64,000 nt of DNA, taken from contig OV121097.1 in assembly GCA_921293015.1 (NCBI GenBank), forward strand, positions 27,749,429 through 27,813,428, in the 5' to 3' direction. This stretch comes from Phorcus lineatus. Its lineage: Eukaryota > Mollusca > Gastropoda > Trochida > Trochidae. Below the pieces are notes generated by a model. The model had not been told where the DNA came from. It did not search any database and was given only the letters and a program-made list of their open reading frames with translations. This document shows, piece by piece, positions 16,767 to 35,432 of the stretch (position 1 is its first letter; each line of letters begins with the position of its first letter). The translations under genes were made by a program, and so were the position numbers.

Positions 16767-17110
16767 CCCATACGAAATATCCTTATAAGAATCTTATAAG
16801 AATCTTATAAGAATCTTATAGGAATCTTATACAATTCTTATAAGATTCTTATAAGATTCTTATAAGTTTCTTATAAGAATTTTGTATGCAAATTAGGTAA
16901 GAACTTATAAGATTCTTATAAGATTCTTATAAGATTTCCTATAAGTTTCTTATAAGATTTCTTATAAGATTCTTATAAGATTTCTTATAAGATTCTTATA
17001 AGATTCTTATGAAGTGTTTTATAAGAATCTTAAACTCAATCTGGTAAGGAACTATAAGATTCCCAGAAACCAGTTTCTAATTGGAATCTTATAAAATTCT
17101 TACAGGATCT
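16767..17110. repeat. Left subterminal TCTTATAAGA array
   Basis: About 15-20 copies of TCTTATAAG or its complement, a self-complementary 10-mer core, occur in 340 bp with irregular spacing. Copies run in near-tandem phase in places and are separated in others, unlike a simple satellite. The matching array at the right end points to binding sites for an element-encoded protein. Confidence 0.85.
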
Positions 17111-18464
17111 AACTATTAATACAAACAAAAGTTCCTGGTCAACCATGCACTGGAATCATAATGGTGCAAATAATCATAAGATAATGAGGTTGAAAGAAAA
17201 CTGTTGAATATCATAATGATTATTCAACTCTTCACATTTGGTAACTTTATTCAGAGGCAGTGGATAAATCTCCTGAAACAAGAAATTTCAATAAACAAAT
17301 CACGATTGAGCAAAAGGTAACATTCATCTTTAATACGAGCACAGTTACAAACAAATGACATATTTATGGTGACAAAGTAAAGAGACTACAAACTTAAAAG
17401 ATCAAAAAAAGATTGTGAGCACTTTTTCATTGCTTTTATTATAATCCTTTATCATTGTGACAAATGTCAAATTTTTATAATTGGTTATGCTCCTTAAAAT
17501 AGTTATAATGAAAAATCCAGGGATACCGACTAATATGTAAAGTTGTTTTTGTTTGTCAAAGTAAGTTAACTATCAGCCTCTTTTTCAAATGAGATGCTAA
17601 ATCAGTGTATCAAGTAAAAAACAATAAACTTATATTGCATGAAATAAGACGTATGTACGCTGTATCAAGATAATTTATATAGATAAACAATTTCCTGACG
17701 ACATATTTGTCTTTTAACAATTATAGATGCCATAGAAACATTGACCTCAGTATGATGAAATTTCATATCCATACATTTTCCTCTTCATTCTCCACAAAAC
17801 GCAATAGTGTTACAGCGTTTGAAAAATTAAAGTTTAATTACTGCAGTGAATACTCAGTACTGATCACATTACATTGGACAGTGCCAAATAATATTTACTT
17901 ACCAAAATCATCCTTGTGGCTAATAATAAGAATCCAAAATTTAAAACATAAAAAAGTCTATGGCCAAAATGAGTTTACTTTTATCCTCTCTATGTATCAT
18001 TATGCAAAGTTATTTACCTATAAAAAATACTGACATTTGTTTTCAAAATATAAACAAGAAAAAGCATTAGTTTATTTTTGTTTGTTTTGTTTAACAATGC
18101 ATTACGGTGACGCTCAAAGTTTACATCAGAAACCAAGCCAAAAAACAAGAATCATCAGAAGATGACATGTCCCACCGGTCCCCATTAAAGTTACGGAGTA
18201 TGTTTAAAATCAAGGAAACGGCCAAAAATCTGAAGAAGTTGATTATTAAATTAAGTTTCCATGGAAGCCTCCAAATTTAAAATCTCAAGAAGTTTAACAT
18301 ATGCGCATGCTGACTAATCCACATACAAAGTTCCATTGAGCTGATTCCAGCAATTTTTTAGTTCTGTTCAGAAAGATGGACAGATTGACAAGGTGGTTAC
18401 CATATCCCATGGTATTACATACTTGTGGGATAAAAAATTATAACAGGGTATTTTTAAATATGAA
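17111..18464. other. EnSpm-like element, left non-coding part
   Basis: AT-rich sequence between the left array and the 3' end of the BEN gene. It includes the probable 3' UTR of that gene on the minus strand. A 108-codon plus-strand ORF (17707-18033) has no recognisable motif and is not called. Confidence 0.45.
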
Positions 18465-21400
18465 TCAAATTTTGTTCTTCATTTTTTTTCTCGAATCGGC
18501 ACACTGGCAATTAATGACTTGAATAACCTCTCTCTCAGTTGTTCGAGGGCTTTTGGTCAGCACAAATCCTGTAAAGATAAAATAAATCGTGCATAGTTGT
18601 ATGAAGATATCAACCAACACAAGTACATTTTGTTCTTTTAAGTAAGTCCATTCACAAGCACACTTACTTATATGAATATATATATGATGCTCAACTTAAA
18701 ATTAAATTTATAGCTATAATAATTTCCATATACCACTCAGATTTCCGAACACACCATGTATATCTCCTAGATATATTCTTTGACATTGACCGGATTCAAT
18801 TTTTATTTTCTTGGTTTAACTGTAAATGCTCAAGGTAACTAACCTTTTATTGCTGCCACTGTCAGGGTTGGCAGGGCAGTCTTGCCCTTTTTGCCCTCAG
18901 CTGAAGACTCCCCAAGCTCTTGGTCCGTAAAATAAGCATGTAAGAGATTTCTTATTAGTTTGGAGGTCGATCCCTTCGCAGAAGAAAGGCAGGCATCTCT
19001 CACCACTCTCTTGATCAGCACTCCATGTCCCAGCTCCACAAAGTCAGGGTCACATGTTGAAGATGAAGTTGTTGAAGTTGATGCCACCATGGAGGCTGAT
19101 GAGGGCTGTGGCAGTGGCAAGGGTGAAGGCAAAGGGGATGGCAGAGGCGATGGTGAAGGGGAAGGTGAGAGAGAGACTGATGGTGAAGGTGGAGGCACTC
19201 GTGCTCTCGGTGGAGAGAATGCACATTCTGGAAGAATTTGGTTTGTTTCTGACTTGGAAAGGGAACAGAGCTGTGCTAAATTCCCTATAAATTTCTGCAC
19301 AGCCTCTGCCCTGAAGTCCTGCCTCAGTGTCGTGTTGCAGGGACAAGAAGGAGGAACTGCTGAGGGAGGAAGGGTGATGACTTTTCCCTCGAGTGCTGAA
19401 ATTTGCTCATTCTTTTCCCTCAGCTTTTGCTTCAAGTTCCTTATCACCTCTTCCTGCTCCAATAAAATGGCATCTTTCTCTTCAATGGTCTTTTGCAGTC
19501 TCCTTACTTCTTCCTTCTCCCCAAACTGCAATGCCAGCATTTCCTCTACCATCCTCTCCTGCGCAGCTATTTGGACCTTCTTCTCTTGAACCTTCATCTG
19601 GGCCTTGCTCTTGGGGTCAGGGGCACTCATCTTTGGTTCTGTCTCCTATAAAATAATTTTTTTTATCATATATGAATAATACTTCAGTGCTCACGGAAAA
19701 AGAAACAAAATTATTTTGTGCTTTTTGTTTGGAACAAACTTGAAATTTGAATTCTAAATATTCGTTCACAATGGTTTTTCCAAACTTTTATTTCAGACAG
19801 TTTTTGTTCTTTGATTGGCATTCTAGAAGATGGTGTGATGAACAATAAGGACAATTCTTCTTTATTCTGTAACAATGAAATAATTATTCGGTGACATGTA
19901 GGATCACCATAAATATTTAGAGGGCCATCAGATAGAATGCTTCTAAAAATTGACAAAAATAAGTACCGGAAGTATAAGTCAATCAGAGAATAATTTTACA
20001 TTGTTCTGTTAGCGTCATTACCAGTATTGTAACATATTTACTTCTAATCAACTGTGGAGAGTTAAAAAATCATTTTTTGGAAAATCTGTTAATAATCAAT
20101 GGACTCTTAGCAGTTTTTGAAAGTAAGTCACTTATTCCTATCAGATAGGTAGTAATTAATTTGAAAAATGTGGAAGTCAATGGCTCTTTTTAGTCAAAGG
20201 TAGAACTAAGTAAATCAGTAAGTTGGACTTACAGACTCTTACAGACCTGCTGTAAAAGTGGTACAGTACCTTGTTAACTTCAGGTTTTTTCTTCTTCACA
20301 GTCTTCTCACTGCTACTTTTTGAAGCCTGAGCGTCCTTGTCAGGATAGGCCTGCTTTAATAAGGCTACCTGTCTTGCTGCTTCCTCTTTATCAGCTGTAC
20401 AAACAAACATTTCCTACAGTGCAATTATTTTTTTTCTTATTTCAATTTAATATTCAAATTACCTATTACATCATTACAGACCAGACGGGTGCAGGTCAAA
20501 ATGGCCACAATGACAAAATGGCCACAGACCCCCTTGTCAAAATGGGTATACTAAAAAGTCAATATGGCCACAGGCTCTAGTCAAAATGGCCATGTAAGAA
20601 ATCTTATTAATTGGAAGAATGTACCCCATAGTCAAAATATATAAGGTTATTCTTATGTGTGTTGAGGTAAACTTCATGCGTTGATGTGTTTATTTTGGTG
20701 GTCAAGTTAACACAGGGCACTGTCATAACCTATATATCTATATTGTTTTTGTTAAATTAAAAGTTATCAATGTACCTCCTTGACATTTTATGATATATGG
20801 TATTTTGGTGTTTTTTTTGGTTTGTAGGTTATGTTGTTTCAGATTATATTCTGTGCTTTATTTGAAAAGTTACATAAACATCACTTACAATCATTTACCA
20901 TCATTTACAATTTACAACATTGCTTATCATTGTTCATTGTTCAATCTGTGCTTTCATTCACATCTTCATCATCATGAGAGGTCCGACTGCATCCAGGAAC
21001 TGCATTGGTGACTTCTCACCACGGCGAAGCTGATCTTTCAGACGAGACAGGCGCTGCTCCTTCTCTTTGTAGATTGCTTTCTTGGGTGGTGGAGCAGCTC
21101 CAAAGTTGATCTGGATGACCTTCGCCTTCTCTCCGTTTTCAATGTTCTTGATCAGTTCAATGAACCTGTAGACGTTGGGGTGTCTGTGCTGCAGTGTCTT
21201 GCCGATCCGGGAGTGAAACCCTTCAAGGTTGTTGTTGGTGCGGGGTCCTTGTGTTCCATGGTGGTTCCAGAGTCGGGGTGGGAACCTGGCATCGTCATCC
21301 ACCCACGTCGCGACGATGTAGTCGTTGAACGCATCTTCAGGGCCCGGTCGTCACTAGGTGGATGGCTGTGTTGTGTTGTTATCTTCACGAAGTCTGTGAC

Positions 21401-24400
21401 GGTGGTACACTTGCCACTGCATGACCTATTAACACACCGCCAGTAAACAGTGTCCCCCTTATCCTTGTTCTTAGCATACAAGTATCCGTCAAGTAACACT
21501 TGTGGAGCACCTTTCTGAGACATCACATATTCTACTTTCCGTAACCCAGCCATTGTGGAATTGGAATGTCTATGCCATGTTTCTAACACCTATATATATG
21601 GAAGTATGAGATTAAAGTTAGAGTATTTTCATATAAACACATGTACCTGGGAGGATTATACTGTTTAACAATGTTTTGATAGAGTGCTGAATATATTGTT
21701 ACAGTGTGTTACTACTCAGTATTTTCATATAAACATATACCGGGAGGTTCATACTGTTGAACATTGACCTGTTGATTCAGTGATCTGCTAATTTGACTGT
21801 GTCGCTCTACTCACTGTCAGAGTGGACCAGTCCATTACTTAATTGAATAGGTGTGACCAGCCTGACAATGAACTTTTCATTTCTGCTAATTGGGATTCTG
21901 CGTTTTGCAGTTCTGCGTTTTGGCAGGATACCAATCTTTTAGGGATTACACTTTGCTCTCCCAGGCTATTTGCATGCTACTGTTCTGTGAGAATACTGAT
22001 GTCTACATAACTGATTTGATTTTTGAAAATGAAAAAGATTATTCATAATATCATGCAGGCATGTGAGCAACCAATTTTCAAGAAAGAGGAAAACTGAAGC
22101 AGGGGGGGTCTGGGGGCATGCCCCCCCAGGAAATTTTTTAAATCTTAAACCTAATTTCCTGCAATTTGGTGCAAAGATACAAGTTTTCTATTCTCTTTTC
22201 AAACCTACAAAACACTACCTCTTGAAAGCATTTTTAAGCATTTATCAACTCAGGGATATGCATCTTTACCAACACAATTATAAAACCCATTATTCTCAAT
22301 TCTAAAAGTACACAAATTCATAAAAGATATGAAACGGTATGTTGTTAATTGTAAACTAAAAGCTGTAAAATAAAACAAAACATACCTGAGTGAATATAAG
22401 GATTTAAATCTCCAAGCTTGCAAAATCCACAGACACACAAAGTCAAGTTCATATCATATGCTATAATACTACTATACTACCTACTATCTTTGAAAATTTT
22501 CCAATAATTTTGTGAGAAACCTAAAGACAAGCAGTCTTATTTGATTTTCTTTCTCTTGCTACTACTGTCACTATGTTGCAGTCTGCATGATTCTGCTTCT
22601 TTTGAAAGAATTTCTTTGAATTTCCTTTTAGACACAGGGGCAGCTTGTGATGGAACAATTCCACATTTTCTATGTTTCTCCCTCATCTCTGTCTGTCTTG
22701 ATTCCTTCACCTCCTGGTACCTCTTGTATGATCCTTGCAGGTTTCTGCACAAGACAGGGTCTACCTTAGCATATTTGGGTTCCTTGTGAAGGAACATTTC
22801 TACCGAAGTAGACCCCTGTGCCATCAATTCATACTTCACAGTTTGGATTGCACTATACGTGTCAATCCTCATGTTTGAAGACGACTCGTCCAGCACTTCA
22901 CCCATTATGCTGAAACTGCTTTCAACTTGGGGTCCATGAAAGCATGAGATAACTCCTTTCACCATCGCTGTCAGGAGAGGATAGCGCCCAGTTCTGTCTA
23001 CTGAAGCCCACCACAGGTCAAGTTTCTCATCTTGGCAGGCAAGGGCACCTGGCAGGTTCTGGTCAACAGTGTAGCTCCTCACCTCCTTGTCAAAGTCATC
23101 CATGCTGTCCTCACTGATGATGTTGGTGGCCAGTGTAGGGAGCTGAAGAAGGTGGTGCTGTGTGGTGGCATGTTGTCTCACAATTGGGTCAAGAGCAGAC
23201 ATGGCTTTCAGCATTGGATTGTTGATTGGCATCTTACTAAGAATGGCAGAGCTGCAACTGATGTAGGCTTCTTGGGCTTTCTGCATGAACTCTGCAACCG
23301 ATTTGTCAGTTGTGGAATTTGCAGAGAGAGCTCTCGTCTTAAATCCCACAAACATGTCCTTTAGTGACAGGTGACAGGCAGGGTCTGATACAGGGAAGTT
23401 GACAAGCTTCTTGGATGAGAGGCCCTTAAGATGTTCTGGCTTGATAAAGTTGGAGAGGAAATGGATGGCAAGTTCGACCTGTTCATCATGTAGCTTGTCC
23501 ACTTTTGTGTCCTTTGACTGGAACATCACTACATATTTCTTTAACTGCCCAAGGACTGCTGAGTAAAACTGAAATTAAAATTCAGAAATATAATACATGT
23601 CATATTTTCATAAAAGTATTATAACACATGCATAAATATATTAATGAAAGTAATTTATGAACTTAAAAATAATTATATTAAATATATCAATGATCTCAAA
23701 ATGAGAAGAGCATGATAATTTGGGCTTGACAAAAATAAAGTACATAGACATAAGCTACAGTAGCTCAATTGACTTTACTTAAATGAACCAAATAAACACT
23801 ATAAAAAACTACATTAATACCTGCATGATCAAACAAGTTTTCTTCCTCTGGAAGAAGAGTTTGTCTACGATGCGCATCTTTCGGTCTTTTCCCTCACTTG
23901 TCAGGGTCTTCTTAAGGATTGGTTGCATTAGTTTTGATATGGCATCTTGGTTGTTCTGACTGATGTCATACTTAGTATGGATGTCAGCTACTATATCCTG
24001 GTAGGTTGAGGCCTCAGTTTTTGGCAGGAATGGGTAGAAGAATAAGGTATAGGCATCAAAAAGCCTTAATGTGTCCACAGTGACATCATAAATAGATAGC
24101 CATCTGTGAGACACATATCTTTCCGGCACAGTGTACTTGACCTTGCCAAGAATGCTGCATATCATTTGAAGGACTTCCCGATGATCCACAGACCACTTGA
24201 AATCTGAGTGGATATCGCAGACGAGTCCTTCAACATGGTACTCGAAAGGCTTACAGAAGCGCTTTGCAGCATTGTGTGCATGGTGACAGGTGTCCCCGTC
24301 AATATCCAAAAGATGTGGAGCCCTTTCCTTTCTGATCAAGGTTTCCAGTCCTTTCTTTGATCCCCTCATGACTGCACATGAGTCCATCAATATGGACATT

Positions 24401-27400
24401 AAATTTGTCCATGGTATATTGTTTGATGTGAACAACTTGTCAATAGTCTGAAACAAAGTTTGACTGTCAACTTTCACAACAGCAATAGAGTCCAAATGGT
24501 GAACAATAACCTCCTGTTTGTCAATCGAGAAGTAGCTCACCATGATAGCCAAAACACGTTGATTGTTTGAGCTTGTAGCTTCATCAATGTTTAGTGAAAA
24601 CTTAAAATTGCGCATGTCATTTATGAGTTTTTCCCTATAGGTGTAGCCAAGACCATGTGTCATCTTGTAAGATGCCGATGTCCGATCCATGGACAGCTGA
24701 TCCAATGCACACTTGTCAGTTGATAATGCCTTTGCAAGGGTGATTAATTTTGGAACTTGTGAAAATGACATGGAATTTTCAGCAACAAAAGACAAAACCA
24801 TTGCTTCTGCATTGTGTACTCTATCCTTGACTGGGGTCTGTGGTTCAACATGTGGCAATGAAGTTGGTGTATCTGTTCCAGTGTCTTTTCCAGATGGCTG
24901 TTTGAACATGCTGAACATCTTCTGCTGACCTGCAATAGTAAATTAATAATGAACATGACATGAATATGATTATCACATTGTAACAGGAAATACAGATGCA
25001 ATATTTGTATCAATCTGATTGACAGTGTTTTGATTGAAAAGCCTTTTTACTTGAAAACATGAATATTATACAAAGAATAAAACATTACTTTCACCATAAA
25101 GGGAGTCTAATTATAAACTTAATTTTAAACAAGTCAAAACATTCTCAGTGAAATGGAAAACAAAATACAGTGTCCATATCAACACGTAAATTTCTTAATG
25201 TTGTAAACTCCAAAACATGCATGAAAATAACTGAGGCCGTTTTAAGTACAAACCAGCTACTAAATACATTATATTTACATCAATGACTTTTGTAGAATTC
25301 ACAATTCAAAGTCGCATCAAAATCTTTTATTTAAATTTGTTTTTTAAATTGATATTATATTTTTCATAAACCAACTTAATAAAGAAAATGGCCAGAGAGT
25401 TAAACAGAATGTTAGAGGAGTTAAACATGCAATGGTTTAGAAAGTTCGTAAACATCTATTCTGAAAAAATATAAAAACGATCACAAACACAAATATTGAC
25501 AAGTGCTGTACCATCACCAATATAATTCATTCATATAACAACTTAAAGGTTTTGTTGCATAACAATTACCATATCGCCAAATGATAAAAGTACTTACTTC
25601 ACATGCATCATGCAACCTGCAAAGTTTTAAAAAAAACAACAAGGATAACAAACAGAAACATCAAAACAATATATCAAGTAAACATGAAAGGAAAATAACA
25701 TAAACAGGATGTGAATTCATAGACGAAATTGATTCAGCAGATTCACTGACATTAAAATAAATAATGAAATCTATTCTCAATGGTTTATATACACTATACA
25801 CATATCGTTTAAGGACTTGTTCGTTTTCAAAAAATACTAGTCTATATAAACATGAGAGAAAAATATATAAGTTTAGTGGAATATTACTAAATAAAATGTT
25901 TGGTCCAAATTAATCAATTTGTTGTACGATTAAACTTTGAATCATATCTAAACTTTTTAAGTTTTTAAATTTTATTATTATTAATAATTACATAAATGAA
26001 ATGAGTATTGTTTTATTTCATATTTGCTGAAAATTTGTCAACGATTCTACAAACTACATTCCAAACACATGCAGTTGAAACGAATCAAGACAGCGGTTTT
26101 TTCATTCATCATCAGCTGATCATAACTCGATCGTTCTTTCATAAACAATTAAACATGCAGATGCACAATAACATAACAATAACATACCTGGTAATGCATA
26201 GTTGGTCTTCTGAATATGAAGAAGTTCCTTGTGCTTTGCCGAAGTGACATGACTTTCAAGCGCTACACAGCCTCGCTTGCCGTAGTTTATTTCTTTTCGA
26301 CAGAGTTTACAGAACGCAAAACCAGCTTTGTTGATCTTGTCGAATGCTGCACCTATTTTATTATCAACTATTTTCTCTAGCCACGACCAACACCAGGTAT
26401 TTTTCACTCCAGCATCGATCTTCGTGACATCGGTTTTCCATGCAACCTTCGCCATTTTTTAGATACGCTTAGCTCTCAGCATTGCCGGTCAGTGTTGAGG
26501 CATGTAACCGAGCGTAATCACACCGCTGTGTTGAGCTTGAAATGGCGCGAAAACATATTTCCGGCGCTTGTTAAAATCCGGAAAAAATATTTTCAGCCAA
26601 TGTCCGGTAATTTTTTTTTTATCCGTTTTATATAATTGTAAACGCGGAAAGGATTTTTTTGGGCGGAATTAAAGTTTGAAATACGCGGAATTCCGCGTTT
26701 TGGCGGAAATTTCACATCCCTGATCATGACAAAATGAAAATAAACAATTTATGATATTCAAGTCTTTCCCAAGTTTAAAGAATAGGATTGTAGGCAATCA
26801 CATGTTTATTTCAGTCATAAGAATAAATAAAAACAAGACACAAGGTTAACACAACCAATCTGTTATTGATTTATGAGAGACTAAAAACTAAATCAAAATT
26901 ATCTAAACAAAGTTAGCTCTTTACATTAATACCTTCAAACTATAATTATTCAACTATTTATCAAGGAAAAAGTGTGTCTTAATTCATTCAAATTGAGTGT
27001 AACAAAACAAAAATGTTAATGTTCTTTAATTATTTCAACAATATTTCATGGCCATTTTGACAATGACTAAAGTCACTTGTGGCCATTTTGACTTTTCAGT
27101 TTGGCCATTTTGACTAGGGATTTGTGGCCATTTGCTCTGTAGCTCATCAGGCTTTACCTTTCATTTTACTTTAGGGTGTGGCCAATGTGATTTCCACCTT
27201 ACTAGTCAAGGAGTCTGTACACAAAGTTAGAGCTTTCTAGGCCTTATGGTTGGGGAGAAGAAGATGAAAATAGGTTTTTAGAGTGTGGCCCCTTTGGCCT
27301 TTATTAGGGGTCACAGGGCAACAAAAGCTACAATTTATAATCCTAATTAGCCAAGGAGTCTATACATAAAGTTTCAGCTTTTAAGGCCTTATGGTTCTGG

Positions 27401-29158
27401 AGAAGAAGTCGAAATTCCACAAATGTACGGACGGATGGACAAACGGATGGACGCCGGACACCATATGCCATGCCATAAGCCCATCAGGCCTTACAGGCCG
27501 GTTGAGCTAAAACGAATTGCAAACAATGAATGGACAAAGCAAGGTGCCATGACGATGGGAAACAATTTGATTGATATTTTACTTGTTTTGCCAGCTAATC
27601 TTTTGTCAATGAAATATCACAAAACTGAATAAAGAAATTGGAAATTCATAGATTTTAAAGAATGTGACAAACAGTCCCTTTTGTCCACTAACCTAATCAC
27701 CTGAGTTTAATAAATTTTGTTCTTTAAAATTACGTTACTTACATCCGACAAAAAGAATCTTGGCCTGGTACATATTTTTATCGCTCCATATGGCCATGCA
27801 GCGATCTCCTTCCTGAAGATTGCCCTCTTGAAGACACATCCCTGTCTCCTCATCCTCTACCTCTGTCCCCTTCAGTACACGACTCAAAAGGCCATCATGG
27901 TATCTCACAACCACCCATTTCACTACAAATTACATAATAAACTATTTAAATAATTAAAATATATAGACCAACAATTGCCCCAAAATCACATAAGCTAAAA
28001 TTAAATAGTCACACATATAAATCTGTTCACAAATATTAATGTTCCCAAATTTTATTAGGTATACAATCAATAATAAAATCTTTTAGTGATGTAAATAATG
28101 TTGTATCATTTATTAAGAGTGTCACTTACTGTGACAGTTGAACATAATGCTTTTACAATATTTCAGCCATTAGCGCCTACATTGTGATTTAACTATAATT
28201 ATTGAGTCAAATTCATTGTCTCGACAAATTAGTCACAAAATAAGAATTGACATATTCATCAACTGTTGCAGGAAAACTTAAAACAAATTTTGGTTTTTGT
28301 AATTTTATCAAACAAAAGTTCAAGACATCAGACACACAGCTACAAATACATATCAGTAATATAATTTACATAAAGATAATGGATGATGATAAAACTGTAG
28401 AATTAAATTTTTTTACAATATTATTGCAGCAATTCTAATATCATTTAAAAATCAAATGAATCATACATTGTATTTAAATTGAATTGGGCCAGAGCCAGTA
28501 CTATACAATAGTTAAACATTCTGATAACCTTAGTCCTTTTCTCAATTTAATAATTATTAATATTTACCTATGCAACGGATATTTAATATTGACAAATCAA
28601 TTCAAAATTGTAACCTAATGATACATGATTTTAGCAAGAACAAACTAAATTAATGAAAAATTTTAATAGAGGCAAAATAACTTGTCTGTGAAGATTAATC
28701 TATTTTTAAAACCTGGAAAATTATCAATTTTATTTTTATCAAAATAAAATTTCAGTTACACCAAAAATGTATAAATTTCTGGAACATCATAATGAGTTTA
28801 CTGATTTCTGCTTGAAAAAAAATTCCTTCACGTTTTTGTTAATTTAAATGAATACGACAGCATGATTACATAATTAACTATCGCTCCCCACAAGGTCTTT
28901 AATATTTTATGCTGCTTAGTTACATTTTGAAATTGTATCTTGAGAAAGATTCAAAGAAACTTTGTGTAAATTCTATTGCGTTTATCAAGTGTTTCAGCAT
29001 CCCCGAAAGCCTAATACTCTATGTCGCTCAAATGAAAGCAGTTAATGTAACTAATATAGGCCAGTAGTGGTACAAGTTTATTAGAGTAATATAACATACT
29101 TACGTTCATCAAAGTGGTAGGTTCTGACACCTCGGCGATCGTTTAACTTCTTGGCCAT
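18465..29158 (-). CDS. BEN-domain coiled-coil protein of the EnSpm-like element, five exons, 421 aa
   Basis: Exons on the minus strand: 29158-29104, 27922-27743, 20394-20270, 19645-18844, 18568-18465. All have GT-AG borders and consistent phases, and the spliced frame is open from MAKKLNDRRG to the TGA. An N-terminal Tudor-like module (WVVVRYHDG, then GDRCMAIWSDKNMYQAKILF) spans about residues 20-80. A Lys-rich linker follows, then a long coiled coil (about 140-215: repeated KVQEKK, EEKEEVRRLQ, LREKNEQISA). A Ser/Pro-rich tract leads to a C-terminal BEN domain (about 322-421: LGHGVLIKRVV, STSKLIRNLLHAYFTDQEL, then REVIQVINCQC). BEN domains bind DNA, often palindromic sites as dimers. It is divergently placed against the transposase gene inside the same termini. 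The long second intron holds the nested MULE and hAT elements. I infer a role in binding the element ends; a host chromatin protein captured by the element is the alternative. Confidence 0.82.
20958..21589 (-). pseudogene. FLYWCH-MULE transposase, core deleted
   Basis: The N-terminal part (from 21589 or the ATG at 21553) is a FLYWCH zinc finger: GYLYAKNKDKGDTVYWRC, then CSGKCTTV and HSHPP. In a different frame, from about 21335 to 20958, the C-terminal MULE block follows: FNDYIVATWVDDDARFPPRL, RTNNNLEGFHSRIGKTLQ, HPNVYRFIELIK. A normal MULE transposase has several hundred residues with the DDE core between these blocks. Here they are joined directly with a frame change, so the gene is an internal-deletion derivative and cannot encode an active enzyme. 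The element would depend on a relative for movement. Confidence 0.8.
22056..26722 (-). mobile_element. Complete hAT transposon, 4.7 kb, nested in the MULE
   Basis: The left end CAGGCATGTGAGCAACC and the complement of the right end CAGGGATGTGAAATTTCC are related hAT termini. ATCATG abuts both ends (22050-22055 and 26723-26728), giving a 6-bp target duplication. Just inside the right end lie repeats of GCGGAATTCCGCG and AAATCCGG type. The left end has a G-run and C-run around GGGGGCATGCCCCCCC, a near-perfect palindrome. The transposase gene (26455-22537) is spliced and open. Confidence 0.82.
22537..26455 (-). CDS. hAT transposase, three exons, 802 aa, open reading frame
   Basis: Exons: 26455-26188, 24929-23821, 23568-22537. 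Donors GTATGT and GTATTA and acceptors TTGCAG and TTTCAG give consistent phases and one frame without stops. Exon 1 encodes a BED-like zinc finger (WSWLEKI, FCKLCRKEI, LESHVTSAKHKELL). Exon 2 carries the first acidic site in FSLNIDEATSSNN, the second in SILMDSCAVMRGSKKG, then CHHAHNAAKRF and YVSHRWLSIYD. Exon 3 has LWWASVDRTGRYPLL and GPQVESSFSIMGEVLDESSS with the expected catalytic E, then a basic tail ending SSSKRKKIK. It is the intact relative of the relic at 12700-16560. Upstream of the ATG lie only element sequences; the promoter is presumably internal. It appears capable of activity. Confidence 0.88.
27139..27510. repeat. Short mollusc-type repeat with inverted ends
   Basis: The unit starts TAGCTCATCAGGCTTTACC and ends CAGGCCGGTTGAGCTAAAA, so its termini are imperfect inverted repeats. 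Inside, a module of AAGGAGTCT, then GGCCTTATGGTT, then GGAGAAGAAG occurs twice, 149 bp apart (27204 and 27353). GGACGGATGGAC-type copies lie near the right end. It directly abuts the right end of the MULE-like element. No coding potential. Confidence 0.65.
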
Positions 29159-30740
29159 TTCTACGATGTTTCTGGTTCAAAAAGATGTTCTAACTGACGT
29201 TAAGTATGCGACACGCGACAAAACATCACTGACGATGGTAAAGCAAATTGAAAAGAACCGCCAACCGGAAGCAATTCCAATAATGTTACTTCCAAACATG
29301 GAACCGGTTAAATATTCAGGAATCGGCATATTGTTATAATCAAATGGAATGTCATTCGAAAGCGTTTCATTATTCGATATCAATAATATACTTGGAGAAA
29401 AAAGTCTCCACCAAGAATTCAAGACTGTAAGGCTATTATTCGATAAAATTGTTGAATCGGCTACACCATTCCGTATCCGAAACCATTCCGGAATTCCTTC
29501 ATTTTGGCGAAGGCTTTATTGCGCACGCACCCTTCAAGACACGTGAAAGACCACACGTGAAACACTTTGGAGCTGTACGGTGTCTAGACTTAAAAGTCCC
29601 TTACACAGATGGATTTGTCAGCACGTTAAAAGGATAAAAGGTAATATTTAAAATATTATGATATCAATTCTATAAATTGTAGTTGTAGACTTATTTCTAA
29701 TCATTTCGCTGAGCGCTAGTTTGATTTGTAACGGTTGTTTTATTCTATATTTTAGAAACGTAAATGTCTGAAGTTCAGTGCAACTGTATTTTATGTATCT
29801 GAGTATTGAGTAACCTCCCTTACGTTCTCAATGCCGGCAAGCATTACATGAAATTACGAACCAAAACGAGAATAATGAACAATAATTTGGTCTCACATTT
29901 AATCTGTAATTTCTTTTGATGTGTCTGATATGTTTTTATATACGTTGTGTACGGGTTGCATACGTGAATGATCAGTCTTTAAATGATAATTGATCGAGGA
30001 TCTAGAATTTCTTGCAAAATCTAATATATTCAACGACTCACATTAGAATGTCAGAAATATTATATATGTTTTTCTTTCAGTATTTTTTAAAAATATTATT
30101 ATGGTAATTAATCAAAAGTTCGGATTTTAGAAATAAAATCTGAGGCGAACTCTTATTTAGTAGAAACCCTTTTCTTTTTTTAAAAAACAAAATTCTGTTT
30201 TATGATCAAAATTAAACATTTGTTATAAGTAATCAAAATAGATAATAATGACCAAAATTTGAAACATTGATAATGAATAAACCTTGAAATTTACAGTATT
30301 TCTATAAAAAAAACCCACCTCAGATATATAAAGAATTATCAACATTGTGTTTAAAAGGCCTATTGATATAAATTAGATGATAACTAAAATGATAATTTGT
30401 CAGCTAACCCAGCAGTAATTATAATGAAATAAAGTTATTGTTGGAAATCTGAATTTTTCAAGTCAAAGTCATGAGATTAGCTGAGTGTGGTATTATGATT
30501 AGATAAATGTAGAATTAATTTGGATGGTGAAGCCAGGTTTATTATCTCTATGATATATATTTGTGACAATGAACAATTGCAGTTAATATTTCTCTCATCT
30601 GTACATGTTTACAAATACTTTATTTTGTATCATATTCCTGCTGACATTTAATTGAAATCATATTTGATATCAATATAAAATATATGAAACTTAGTATATT
30701 TATTGTGATAATTTGGATCCATTTCAGATACATCATTACA
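29159..30740. promoter_or_regulatory. Divergent intergenic region of the EnSpm-like element
   Basis: The BEN gene starts leftward at 29158 and the transposase rightward at 30741, so this 1.6-kb AT-rich segment must hold both promoters. A GT donor at 29641 (AAAAG-GTAATATT) and the acceptor TTTCAG at 30722-30727 suggest a non-coding first exon and a 5' UTR intron for the transposase. Two short palindromic blocks (ATTCCGGAATTCC near 29487-29499; TTCCAATAATGTTACTTCC) are visible. No other gene is seen. Confidence 0.5.
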
Positions 30741-33700
30741 ATGGCAGACTCAACAAGAAAGAGAGTGAGTACATCTTATAAAAGATACATCAAGGAACAC
30801 ACTGGAAGTGAGGGTGTTCCTGTAAGTTCAAAGCGAGCTTTCATGGAAAGTTATAACAAAGTTATCGCAGAAGCAGCGAGCGGTCCTGGTGCAGTGAGTG
30901 TTGATAATGCAAGCAACCATGCACATCTTCAACTCAATTCATGTGAAGATCCCTCTCATTATCACTTCGTAGCTGATGTAAATTTACCTAGCTGTCATCC
31001 AACAAGTGTTGATTCTATGGACTCAGAAGTTCAAGCTGTCATTGGAAACAAAGCAGAACTGACAGATGAGTCAACACAGCTCAGTCAAATATACCACATA
31101 TTATCAAGATTCAAGAACAGAATAACAGGTTTGAATGGAAGTTTATGTACTATCAATACAACCAACAATGATGTTTAGTAGGTTATGCTTTCATTGTTTT
31201 ACTGTTAAAAAAGGTTTGTAAACTTAAGTGATCATTTGAGAATGTTTTACAAAGATATTCTTTGTCATTTCCATTTTACATAACTATGTTTAGCGAATAA
31301 AATTCATCATGCTTTAAAAGCAGTTACAGTTTCTACTATCATTGTGTTTACAATAAAGAGTAAGTTTGTCTTCAAGTAATCATGAGACTGCTTGCTTTAA
31401 CTTTCTTAGATTTTGGCAAAATTCTTCTTTACAAAACATTATAAATTGACCTTTTTAGAGTACAGCCAAACCTCGTTAAACAGATTCATATGGAAACCTT
31501 CTATTTGAGACAAACTCGCCAGTGCACTGCGTTTTGTATTTGTGTAGATTTTAATCTTTAGAATTAAGTGTATTGCTAAGTAAAAGATTTTTTTGCATTA
31601 TTTTCAGTATTGACACTGGTCACTTGGACGACTTAAGAGATGTGGATGAACAATATTCAGATGATGAATCAACATGTTCAAGCACCAATCAGTTTGGTTT
31701 CATTGATGAGGAAGAAGTGGAGCATTCAAGTTGTGAAGAAGATAATGTTGATTTGAATGATCAAGACATTAATAGCTACATTTACAAGGGAGCACAGATC
31801 ACTTTATCCATTAGCATGCTACTGATTTTAACGTTTGCAACAAGACACTCTTTGACATCTGAAGGAATAACAGACTTGTTGCAACTCCTTGCATTACACT
31901 GTACAGCAGGACACTGTCTGCCAAAAACCCTTTATGCCTTCAAGAAATATTTTCAAACTTTTGACTATCCATTGATTTACCACAAGTATTGCTCATTTTG
32001 TTTACTTGGGATTGAGCCATCAAAAGAATTTGATACTTGCCAGAATCCTTTGTGCTCAAAGAAATTGAACGAAGAAGGAAATTTATCAAGTTTTATTGAA
32101 ATACCTATTGAGTCACAATTGCAATCAATGTTTCAACGGCCAGGATTTTTTAATAGTCTAAAAATAAGAAAAGAAATAAGAATAATAACGAAGAGACTAT
32201 CGAAGATATTTGTGATGGATTACAGCATAAAAAATTAGTTTCTGACGGCATTTTGAAGTCAATCTATGATTTGACTTTGACTTTCAATACTGATGGTGCT
32301 AAACCTTTTAGAAGTTCAAAGACAAGCTTATGGCCAATTTATTTAATGATCAATGAACTTCCATACTCAGAAAGAAGAATGCCAGAAAATATGGTTTTAG
32401 CTGGAATTTGGAAAGGGGCCAAGAAGCCATCAATGGCAGGATTTTTAATTCCGTTCATGAAACGCTTAAAATGTTTAGAAAAGGGTTTTTTGGTAAATAT
32501 CAATGACGAAGAAGTGACATGTAAGGCTGTTGTGATAGCAAGTACTTGTGATCTCCCTGCTCGTGCCTGTGTCTGTGGGATGAATCAGTATAATGGTGAG
32601 GCTTCTTGTGTCAAGTGCACACAACCGGGAAAGGTTGTCCAGGTTGGAAAAGGTCACACAAGAGTATTTCCTCCCAACATGGATTGTTTGGATGGTCCAA
32701 AAAGAACTGATGACTCGGTGATAAGGGATTCTTTGCTCGCTGTGAGGATAAAGACCCCAGTTCATGGCATCAAAGGTCCATCGTGCTTTTCATTCCTATC
32801 TTATTTCAGTTTTGTCAATTGCACTGGTATTGACTATATGCATGGTGTTCTCCTGGGAGTTGCAAAACTTATGCATTCAATGTGGTTTGGCACCAAGTAT
32901 AATTCTCATATCTTCAGTGTTTCTGCTGCGATTGATCAAGTCAATAAACGGTTGTTGCAAATAAAGCCTCCTAATTATATTTCAAGATTGCCAAGGTCAC
33001 TTATGGACTCTGATTACTGGAAAGCGTCTGAATGGAAACACTGGATTCTCTACTATGCTCCAACAATAATGCATGATATACTTATGCCTGAATATTACAG
33101 ACATTTTATGCTTTTGTCTGAAAGTATTTTTTTGTTGTTGCAAAATTCAGTCAAGCTGTCAGAAGTCCATCGTAGCAAGATTCTCCTTGCAAGATTTGTA
33201 GCCATGTTTCCAGTTATGTATGTAGAATCAGCAATGACTCTTAATGTCCACCAGTTGTTACATTTACCTGACAATGTTCTAAATCTAGGTCCTCTCTGGG
33301 CTTTTTCATGCTTTCCTTTTGAAGATGCTAATGGCTTTTTGTTGAAGCTTTTTAACGGCACTCAACACATTGATAAACAGATAGCTCATGCAATTGCAGT
33401 TATTCAAAAAATGCCAGAACTAATACCTGCTATTGAAAAGAACAGTGTTGCATATGATTTATACTGTAAGTTGAAAAACAAGTCCAAATACAAAGGTACC
33501 ATGTTGGATGTTGGCATATATTACATTGGTGCTACAAAGTTCATAAGTCAATTATCTCCAGAGTATGACTATGCTGTAAAGGAAAAACATATTGGTTCAT
33601 TTGGTAAACTAGTGATTTTTAAAAGAGTCAAAGTTGATGGAGATGTCTTCTTTTCAGAGGCATATGAGCGTGTGCATTTAAGGAATAGCTGTACTGTAGT

Positions 33701-34007
33701 TTTTGGTACTGAGACATCAGATAGATTTGGCATCATAGAAACTTTTCTGCAAGTTTCTCCTGTATGTCTGTGTAAGACTTTTACCACATGTTCATGTGTG
33801 AGAAAAAACTTTGCCATGATCAGAAACTTGGAAGTCACAGAAAACTTCATGGGTGTTATTAACATCAAGAAGGTTAAGCCAACTGTTGACAAGAAAATAA
33901 CTGCTGTTGAACTGAAGGCTTTGAAACGGAAGTGTGTGCTGATAACATTAAAAGATTCTGGTGCTGTTTTTCTATGCAATGTGCCAAATGTTCTGGAAAA
34001 GGATTAA
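30741..34007 (+). CDS. EnSpm/CACTA-type (TNP2-like) transposase, spliced, probably frameshifted
   Basis: The gene starts at ATG 30741 (MADSTRKRVSTSYKRYI) just after a UTR acceptor. Exon A runs to about 31128 (donor CAG-GTTTGA). The next block begins at 31608 after TTTTCAG and runs on to 34007. Motifs in order are TSEGITDLLQLLALHC, CSFCLLG (zinc-ribbon-like CxxC with NPLCSKK), LTFNTDGAKPF, SLWPIYLMINELPY, MVLAGIWKGAKKPSMAGFL, CDLPARACVCGMNQYNG, IDYMHGVLLGVAKLM and LWAFSCFPFEDANGFLLK. The last three with NTDG carry the acidic residues expected of the CACTA DDE site. Two oddities: the obvious A-to-B splice changes frame, so a small extra exon or other donor is needed. Near 32160, in the A-rich run after FFNSL, the frame shifts by one base before KSIYDLTLTF. 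This copy may therefore be recently inactivated. Confidence 0.8.
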
Positions 34008-34399
34008 TACCAATGGACTTTAAGTGTGTAAAATGATGACTTTGTTCTTGTGCAGTCATTAATAGTTTCTGGAGCAGAGCACTTAAACCTTTTAACTGAT
34101 ATATTTTAAATTGTGATACCATTCTCATGATTGTTTTTCCCTTATTGGGGAAAGGTATTGCTTGATACTGATCAGATATGGACCAGTCAGTTTATTTATG
34201 ATGCAAGGAATTGTGAATGAGTGTAATAGTTAAATTCCTTTTCATGAGAATGACTAATGTTTTAATTATTTAATTTTTTAATTACAGTCAATGAGGATTT
34301 CTTCAAAAATGTTTAATATGTGGACTAATAAAATACATTAAATAACAATATTCATTTTTAACCTCTTGAAATTGTTCATTTCAGATAAGAAAATCATGA
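34008..34399. other. Transposase 3' UTR
   Basis: AT-rich sequence between the stop codon and the right motif array. AATAAA occurs at 34328. No gene. Confidence 0.5.
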
Positions 34400-34621
34400 T
34401 TTTTTATAAAAGATATTCTTATAAGAAATTATCACTGGGAAGAAATATATAGGATTCTTATAAGAAATTTTAGTTACTTAGAAATGTGTAAGATTCTTAT
34501 AAGAAATTTTTGATAGGTTTCTTAGTCTTAACTTTTTCTTATAAGAATCTTATAAGATATCGGCTTCTTATAAGAATCTTATAAGAATCTTATAAGATCT
34601 TATAAGGTAAAATCGTACGGG
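34400..34621. repeat. Right subterminal TCTTATAAGA array
   Basis: About eight to ten copies of TTCTTATAAGAA or shortened forms, densest in the last 90 bp, followed by CTTATAAGGTAAAATCGTAC and GGG. In inverse orientation this mirrors the left terminus at 16767. The array is sparser than the left one. Confidence 0.85.
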
Positions 34622-34942
34622 TAGATAATTCATTAACATTAGATTAACATTAAATATTTACATTGCAAATAATCGCCTTCTTTAAACAGGTTACTTTCAT
34701 GAAATAACTGGTTGTTGAGTTCAGAAATATGAAATACACGATAACTTGTCCTGTTTTCGATCAGTTGGAATTTTAATTTTTTTTTGATCTCTGGTGATAT
34801 TTTAAAAATAAAAGAAGTTGCGTGATAGTACATATTGAAGTTCTTTCCAGGCCAGAACATAGTAAACAAACTGTATTTATTCAATTTATTTTAAACTTTA
34901 CAGTAGTCAAACGTGTGTGTATTGTATCGATGATAAACTTAC

Positions 34943-35432
34943 CGTTGAATGCGTACCCCTTGTTGCACAAGCGGCATATCGCTCTTGATATATCTAATGT
35001 TTTCTTGGAGACTGGTCCTTCTTCATTCTTCCGAAATCCAAAGTGAACCCAAACTCTGGAACGCATTTTTTTCCCAGGATAGTTGTGAATTTTTGCGATG
35101 TCATCGCTGTCCGCCATTTTGATTGTTTGCGCCCCTTAGAACAAAACTAAATATAAACTTGTTTACTTAAACACAACTTCTGGATGGAATTATTATGCAG
35201 AATACAAACAAACATGCTTTTTAAATATATATAGGCAACTTACTTTTACGATTTAAATGTTTTAATGCATGAAATATCTTAATTTATTTTTCGCATCGTA
35301 AGCGGGAGCAAAGGGACGTAACTCCGTGCTTGTACTCGGTTTGTACTCGATCACAGATTTCTTACTCGATTATGTGGTCAAATGGCCCAAACGAGCAATG
35401 CTCGCCGAACTCGATTAATCGGAACACCACTA
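34943..35432 (-). pseudogene. hAT (ZBED-type) 5' end: terminus plus BED-finger exon only
   Basis: The complement of 35413-35432 is TAGTGGTGTTCCGATTAATC, a terminus typical of ZBED-like hAT elements, with TACTCG repeats just inside. The single exon 35117-34943 starts MADSDDIAKIHNYPGKKM and encodes a BED finger (RSRVWVHFGFRK, ICRLCNKGYAFNG), ending in a good donor (G-GTAAGT). The catalytic exons and other terminus are not present to the left, where the EnSpm-like element begins at 34621. It is an orphaned 5' fragment. Confidence 0.7.

Follow-up and report, generated by a model that had tools for sequence, protein, structure and literature searches.

A TRC transposon of the gastropod Phorcus lineatus carries a BEN-domain gene whose product may bind the palindrome arrays at the element's ends

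We analysed a 64-kb stretch of the Phorcus lineatus genome (the window; C39:27749429-27813428), and all genome searches covered the one assembly to which it belongs (957.8 Mb, 74 contigs). The window holds a 17,855-bp DNA transposon (16767..34621) that encodes a Transposase_21 (tnp2) protein and, divergently from it, a protein with a BEN domain. We propose, with a probability of about 0.6, that the BEN protein binds the ends of the element, as TNPA does in plants, the whole being a two-gene TRC transposon that moves by cut and paste. This proposal draws on a palindrome that fits published BEN sites, on the layout of the arrays in which it is repeated, and on independent BEN genes beside Tc1-type transposases. 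The maize element requires two proteins, TNPD and TNPA, of which the latter attaches to its subterminal repeats (PMC2613891; this and the other papers given by accession are drawn on from excerpts). TNPA-like proteins from different elements are dissimilar (PMC1636069, PMC2613891), and the excerpt of DeMarco et al. 2006 reports that no conserved animal counterpart of TNPA was found (PMC1636069). The plant subterminal-repeat binder had no known counterpart in the animal relatives of CACTA elements, and a BEN protein with a ready palindromic site is a candidate.

The structural part of this account is solid and was observed directly: defined ends, a 2-bp target duplication, a Transposase_21 gene, a BEN gene that is integral and open, and arrays of a palindrome that are limited to the two ends. 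With the tnp2 open reading frame as query, the genome gave 45 matches, the best of them at three places, one in the window and one each on C15 and C25. The main BEN exon gave five: these three again, each at 100% identity, and two C16 fragments at 44-51%. Each of the three places holds a complete element with identical ends, in which a BEN gene of five exons runs divergently from the tnp2 gene; the second copy spans C15:18009053-18021349 (12,297 bp) and the third, which is inverted, C25:965895-977797 (11,903 bp). Of the 11,896 bases that align between the C15 and C25 copies, 20 are different, and the window copy diverges from both to a similar degree in gap-free blocks, the three being about 99.8% alike. 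This is a three-copy family that was recently active.

The left terminal inverted repeat (16767..16790, + strand; CCCATACGAAATATCCTTATAAGA at 16767) and the right one (34598..34621, - strand; CCCGTACGATTTTACCTTATAAGA read inward from 34621) agree at 19 of 24 bases, which bears out the inverted, motif-rich termini described in an initial annotation of this DNA. The ends open with CCCATACGA and CCCGTACGA, from which the plant CACTA core is absent, and all six ends of the three copies start with CCC when read inward. When up to two mismatches were allowed, the end pattern gave nine matches genome-wide versus 22 for a backwards control; the exact matches numbered six and were the six ends of the three elements. 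Four empty sites elsewhere in the genome correspond, over their full length, to the flanks of the C25 copy once these are joined (698 bases each vs 700 in the query), and the AT that stands on both sides of the element is single in all four, which fixes the exact ends and a 2-bp target duplication. Since CCC ends, a 2-bp target duplication and Transposase_21 occur together (PMC1636069), the element is a TRC, the animal branch of the CACTA superfamily; of the earlier label "EnSpm/CACTA-like", the superfamily stands and the plant CACTA core does not. The empty-site sequence itself (L051-L054) is a near-identical repeat at four places, with exon-like stretches.

The two divergent genes that had been placed inside these termini are both present. 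A break in the frame near 32.2 kb divides the tnp2 exon (31555..34007, + strand) of the window copy into a pair of open stretches that overlap, 31555-32238 and 32157-34007; the second stretch matches Transposase_21 at 36.8 bits (cut-off 28.6), and the C15 copy does so at 36.2 bits. In C15 the whole exon forms one open frame of 817 codons, whereas it carries a frame shift in the window copy and lacks 277 bp in the C25 copy. Upstream, an open stretch with an ATG (30742..31176, + strand) runs for 145 codons in the window and 142 in C15 and C25, and is probably a first exon. No relatives of the transposase or of parts of the BEN protein were found in viral contigs.

The BEN gene lies on the - strand. 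Exon 1 (29104..29158) supplies the start codon, exon 2 (27743..27922) a Tudor-like module, exon 4 (18844..19645) a heptad-like coiled-coil stretch, a Pro/Ser-rich stretch and the first part of the BEN domain, and exon 5 (18465..18568) the end of that domain and the stop; exon 3 occupies 20270..20394. The coiled coil was assigned by visual inspection and through matches to coiled-coil families. All intron borders are GT/AG, and the spliced frame of 421 codons reported earlier is open in the window, C15 and C25 copies alike. The spliced 421-residue protein matches Pfam BEN at 26.8 bits and its last 103 residues at 24.2 (cut-off 23.2), exon 4 by itself reaching 13.7; the solved sequence closest to the domain belongs to Bsg25A, a BEN protein of the fly, and the match is weak (E 0.61). 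Among the modules first described, the BEN domain holds, while the Tudor-like module stays below threshold (best 16.5 bits vs a cut-off of 31.4), and its single-sequence structural model gave strands only, at low confidence (mean pLDDT, predicted local distance difference test, 60.8).

Since the BEN gene is present and open in three of three copies at three genome places, the view that it belongs integrally to the element is supported, and neither a single transposase-free host locus nor a copy without BEN was found. Its frames differ between copies by 0-2 bases, every one of them amino-acid changing, which is too few for selection on the gene to be measurable. It is unlikely that the gene is a captured passenger, a host BEN gene taken up once and with no part in transposition. 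In favour of that reading, capture of host genes by CACTA elements is known, and a single lineage of the element is seen, in the one species covered; what the element carries, however, is a whole gene with its promoter side, introns and stop. A recent capture should also have left a near-identical host gene, whereas the best matches outside the element are decayed fragments at C16:24.42-24.44 Mb, and a passenger leaves the palindrome arrays and the independent pairing of BEN genes with Tc1-type transposases, both described below, unexplained. The several C16 fragments (L042, L043) share about 44-55% identity with the window protein, and the four loci read there (L042, L043, L060, L061) contained neither a credible tnp2 match nor an array of the motif.

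The ends of the element are marked by arrays of one ten-base palindrome, TCTTATAAGA. The left array (16781..17096) holds 12 exact sites and 18 at up to one mismatch, with a commonest step of 11 bp, and the right array (34417..34607) holds 8 and 9, respectively. All 20 exact sites in the 64-kb window fall within the outer 400 bp of the element's two ends, as do 27 of 30 in the end arrays when one mismatch is allowed; 50 shuffled element controls had a mean of 0.04 and a maximum of 1. Exact sites number 20 in the C15 copy and 15 in the C25 copy, with none mid-element in either. Other ten-base palindromes, surveyed where they occur at least twice in the element, appear at most once in the C15 ends and not at all in the C25 ends. 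Across the 957.8 Mb, a triple-array pattern of TCTTATAAGA gave 22 strand-wise matches, all inside the six element ends, and its backwards control gave none.

These arrays could in principle be read by the transposase itself, with the BEN protein merely regulating its transcription or acting elsewhere. Most DNA transposases do read their own ends. In maize, however, the subterminal repeats are read by TNPA and not by the transposase-like TNPD (PMC2613891), and we consider this explanation improbable, and the least likely of those raised here. Binding by the BEN protein, which we prefer, agrees with what is published on BEN factors. The fly protein Insv, which has a coiled coil and a BEN domain, recognises as a dimer the palindromic site TCCAATTGGA and its TCYAATHRGAA variants, requires its dimerising stretch and forms larger complexes (PMC6911014, PMC6317261). 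We found that TCTTATAAGA fits the Insv consensus at 9 of its first 10 positions, a fit equalled by 6 of the 1,024 ten-base palindromes (0.6%). A BEN-like fold also reads a transposon end in the Tn3 transposase, where it forms the domain DBD1 (PMC9579193).

In the mechanism that we propose, the BEN protein would pair through its coiled coil, and each pair would grip one TCTTATAAGA palindrome through the C-terminal BEN domains. Since the sites mostly recur at steps of 11 bp, which is close to one turn of the helix, the bound proteins may line up along one face of the DNA, where they would cover the two ends, pair them and present them to the Transposase_21 protein. The amount of BEN protein could then decide whether the ends are repressed or exposed, and the N-terminal Tudor-like module may contact chromatin or the transposase. 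TNPA's job in maize would in this way be done by an unrelated domain; TNPA is not known to be a BEN protein. A related explanation retains the binding and drops the assembly: the BEN protein would act on the end arrays as an insulator or anti-silencing factor without building a transposition complex. Insv and ELBA are indeed insulator and repressor proteins that act on short sites in flies (PMC6911014, PMC6317261), and a Tudor-like module would suit contact with chromatin. Yet the arrays begin no more than 15 bp from the cut ends, where transposition factors act, and the divergent promoters lie some 5-12 kb away, and we regard a purely chromatin-based role as unlikely too.

A second pairing of a BEN gene with a transposase supports the end-binding role. 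Pfam BEN gave 14 matches in the whole genome at E <=10, four of them above the cut-off; three belong to the TRC element, five lie beside DDE_3 transposases and six do not. Around the match at C16:19129971 we found a Tc1/mariner-type element of 14,264 bp (C16:19117224-19131487; L074, L069, L063, L070), with inverted ends CAGTGGCGGTCATATGTC and CAGTGTCGGTCATAAGTC that each adjoin TA; of the copies of this element, the one on C16 alone was read at both ends. Its transposase (372 amino acids) scores 79.1 bits against DDE_3 (cut-off 28.6) and has, by eye, the DD34E spacing of Tc1, and its BEN gene lies downstream on the same strand and encodes Pro/Ser-rich and coiled-coil stretches. Like the TRC element, it thus combines, within inverted ends, a transposase with a coiled-coil, Pro/Ser-rich protein ending in a BEN domain; unlike it, it has DDE_3, CAGTG ends and flanking TA, and no TCTTATAAGA array. 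An MSL3-chromo-like module (L069:4349-4627; 16.8 bits vs a cut-off of 28) lies between its transposase and BEN exon and is perhaps the front of its BEN gene.

The pairing recurs across the genome. We took the eight transposase places that reach at least 55% identity among the 110 matches listed, and a BEN match lies within 10 kb at six of them (C16, C19, C25, C1, C41 and C13); none lies within 10 kb of C32:13554628 or C41:28527388. Random placement of these eight places and 11 BEN loci (E <=1e-4, rows merged by hand) would yield an expected 0.0018 pairs within 10 kb. Besides the C16 element, the pairs are at C25:~3.366-3.376 Mb, whose right end and at least 8.4 kb are common to the C16 element, C19:~18.834-18.844 Mb, C1:44.80 Mb, C41:27.48 Mb and C13:7.88 Mb. 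They form four lineages: three near-identical copies, and the C1, C41 and C13 pairs, which are 55-60% diverged and have their genes tail to tail. The BEN domains of the TRC and Tc1-type elements are only about 14-20% identical when aligned, which suggests that BEN was recruited separately by the two element types. The C16 element has 12 copies of another palindrome, TACATGTA, of which 11 fall in the outermost 3.2 kb and 0.7 kb; for comparison, the palindrome is found once in the 64-kb window and 8 times in 92,207 bases from other loci. The BEN protein NACC1 prefers CATG-containing DNA in the published excerpt that we drew on, and for the BEN protein of the C16 element this preference and the end enrichment of TACATGTA are only a lead.

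Several observations weigh against the end-binding role of the BEN protein. The Insv motif was picked after the BEN domain was known, which makes the 0.6% a post hoc figure, and, in excerpts of published work, other BEN proteins favour CATG or CpG motifs, and those of Bend4 and Bend5 are unlike Insv's; for these reasons the fit of TCTTATAAGA to the Insv site is a strong lead and not a test. The three copies represent a single lineage and, being so nearly alike, amount to one evolutionary observation for gene content. A perfect 2-bp duplication flanks one copy of three (the window copy has TT/TA and the C15 copy AA/CA). A genome search for an empty site of the C15 copy gave none, and the window target site may be disturbed, since a repeat (34623-35432) that is 99.1% like C25:19536188 (L059) starts one base past the element's right end; in SmTRC1, 7 of 14 copies have a 2-bp repeat (PMC1636069). 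Across the 41 tnp2 places listed, a BEN match lies within 40 kb at the three copies only, the next being 45 kb off, in a genome where detection of BEN is weak.

Other tnp2 loci also carry a different partner: in 14 of 28, from seven families, a different conserved second-gene module is encoded by an exon shortly downstream on the same strand (L015-L017, L019, L020-L022, L026, L028-L030, L032-L034), with a hydrophobic strand, VPxxW and WPP. Among the other tnp2 families whose flanks are readable, most have a second-gene exon that differs in this way from the BEN gene. No Pfam family matched this module. A five-member profile of it recovered left-out members at E 2e-8 to 8e-14, gave no hit below E 0.07 at loci that lack tnp2 and left the window BEN protein unmatched at E <=3. 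We take the module to resemble the front of animal DUF4806 proteins. DUF4806 is called a subtype of BEN in a passage citing Pan et al. 2023. Searched with Pfam in three frames, the flanks of L032, L026, L029, L033, L015 and L075 (which continues L020) gave no credible DUF4806 or BEN match, in flanks that end before the expected position. The 9 kb upstream of three tnp2 families (L048, L049, L050) held no BEN match, a weak test because, among families whose module is readable, most have the second gene downstream. A separate second gene is therefore common among the TRC elements of this genome, and the window element is the only one in which we observed it to be BEN.

A broader possibility, which we offer tentatively and think somewhat less likely to be right than wrong, is that BEN proteins form a recurrent class of partners that animal transposons encode to bind their own ends. 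In this genome they would have been recruited no fewer than two times (by TRC/CACTA and by Tc1/mariner elements) and would share one plan, in which a barrel-like module at the N terminus is followed by a coiled coil, a Pro/Ser-rich stretch and, at the C terminus, the BEN domain. Under this scenario, palindrome-binding host BEN factors such as insulators may descend from them, and the second-gene exon seen at 14 other tnp2 loci could encode the first part of further BEN-type (DUF4806) proteins. If BEN genes do travel with two unrelated transposase types, BEN would be a transposon domain as well as a domain of host regulators, which would bear on the origin of palindrome-binding insulator proteins.

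We found no report of a transposon-encoded BEN partner, with either CACTA or Tc1-type elements, in the open-licence literature searched, and each known system shares part of the arrangement. SmTRC1 and other animal TRC elements likewise have a Transposase_21 gene, CCC ends and a 2-bp target duplication recognised from empty sites in repeats; SmTRC1, however, makes short proteins, PrA and PrB, by alternative splicing and without detectable relatives, where the window element has a separate divergent BEN gene (PMC1636069). Maize En/Spm and other plant CACTA elements also encode two proteins, one with a tnp2 domain, and carry many short motifs near both ends, but they differ from the window element in their CACTA core, their 3-bp duplications and the derivation of both proteins from one transcription unit (PMC2613891). 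The Drosophila BEN-solo proteins Insv and ELBA resemble the window protein in their coiled coil and C-terminal BEN domain and act as dimers on a ten-base palindrome and as multimers, but they are host regulators outside transposons, and the central bases of their site differ from those of TCTTATAAGA (PMC6911014, PMC6317261). In Tn3-family TnpA, DBD1 reads the end with a BEN-like fold, but the protein is bacterial and the fold sits inside the transposase instead of in a separate protein (PMC9579193).

The second BEN intron measures 7,348 bp in the window copy versus 1,729 and 1,691 bp in the other copies, so that about 5.6 kb of it is later insertion, and the figure of 7 kb of other transposons given in the initial annotation has to be lowered. 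One or more insertions occupy 20885..21930, which is absent from the C15 and C25 copies. A further hAT-like insertion (22060..26732) has the ends CAGG/CCTG and is flanked on both sides by ATCATG, which is single in C15; it matches Dimer_Tnp_hAT and DUF4371.

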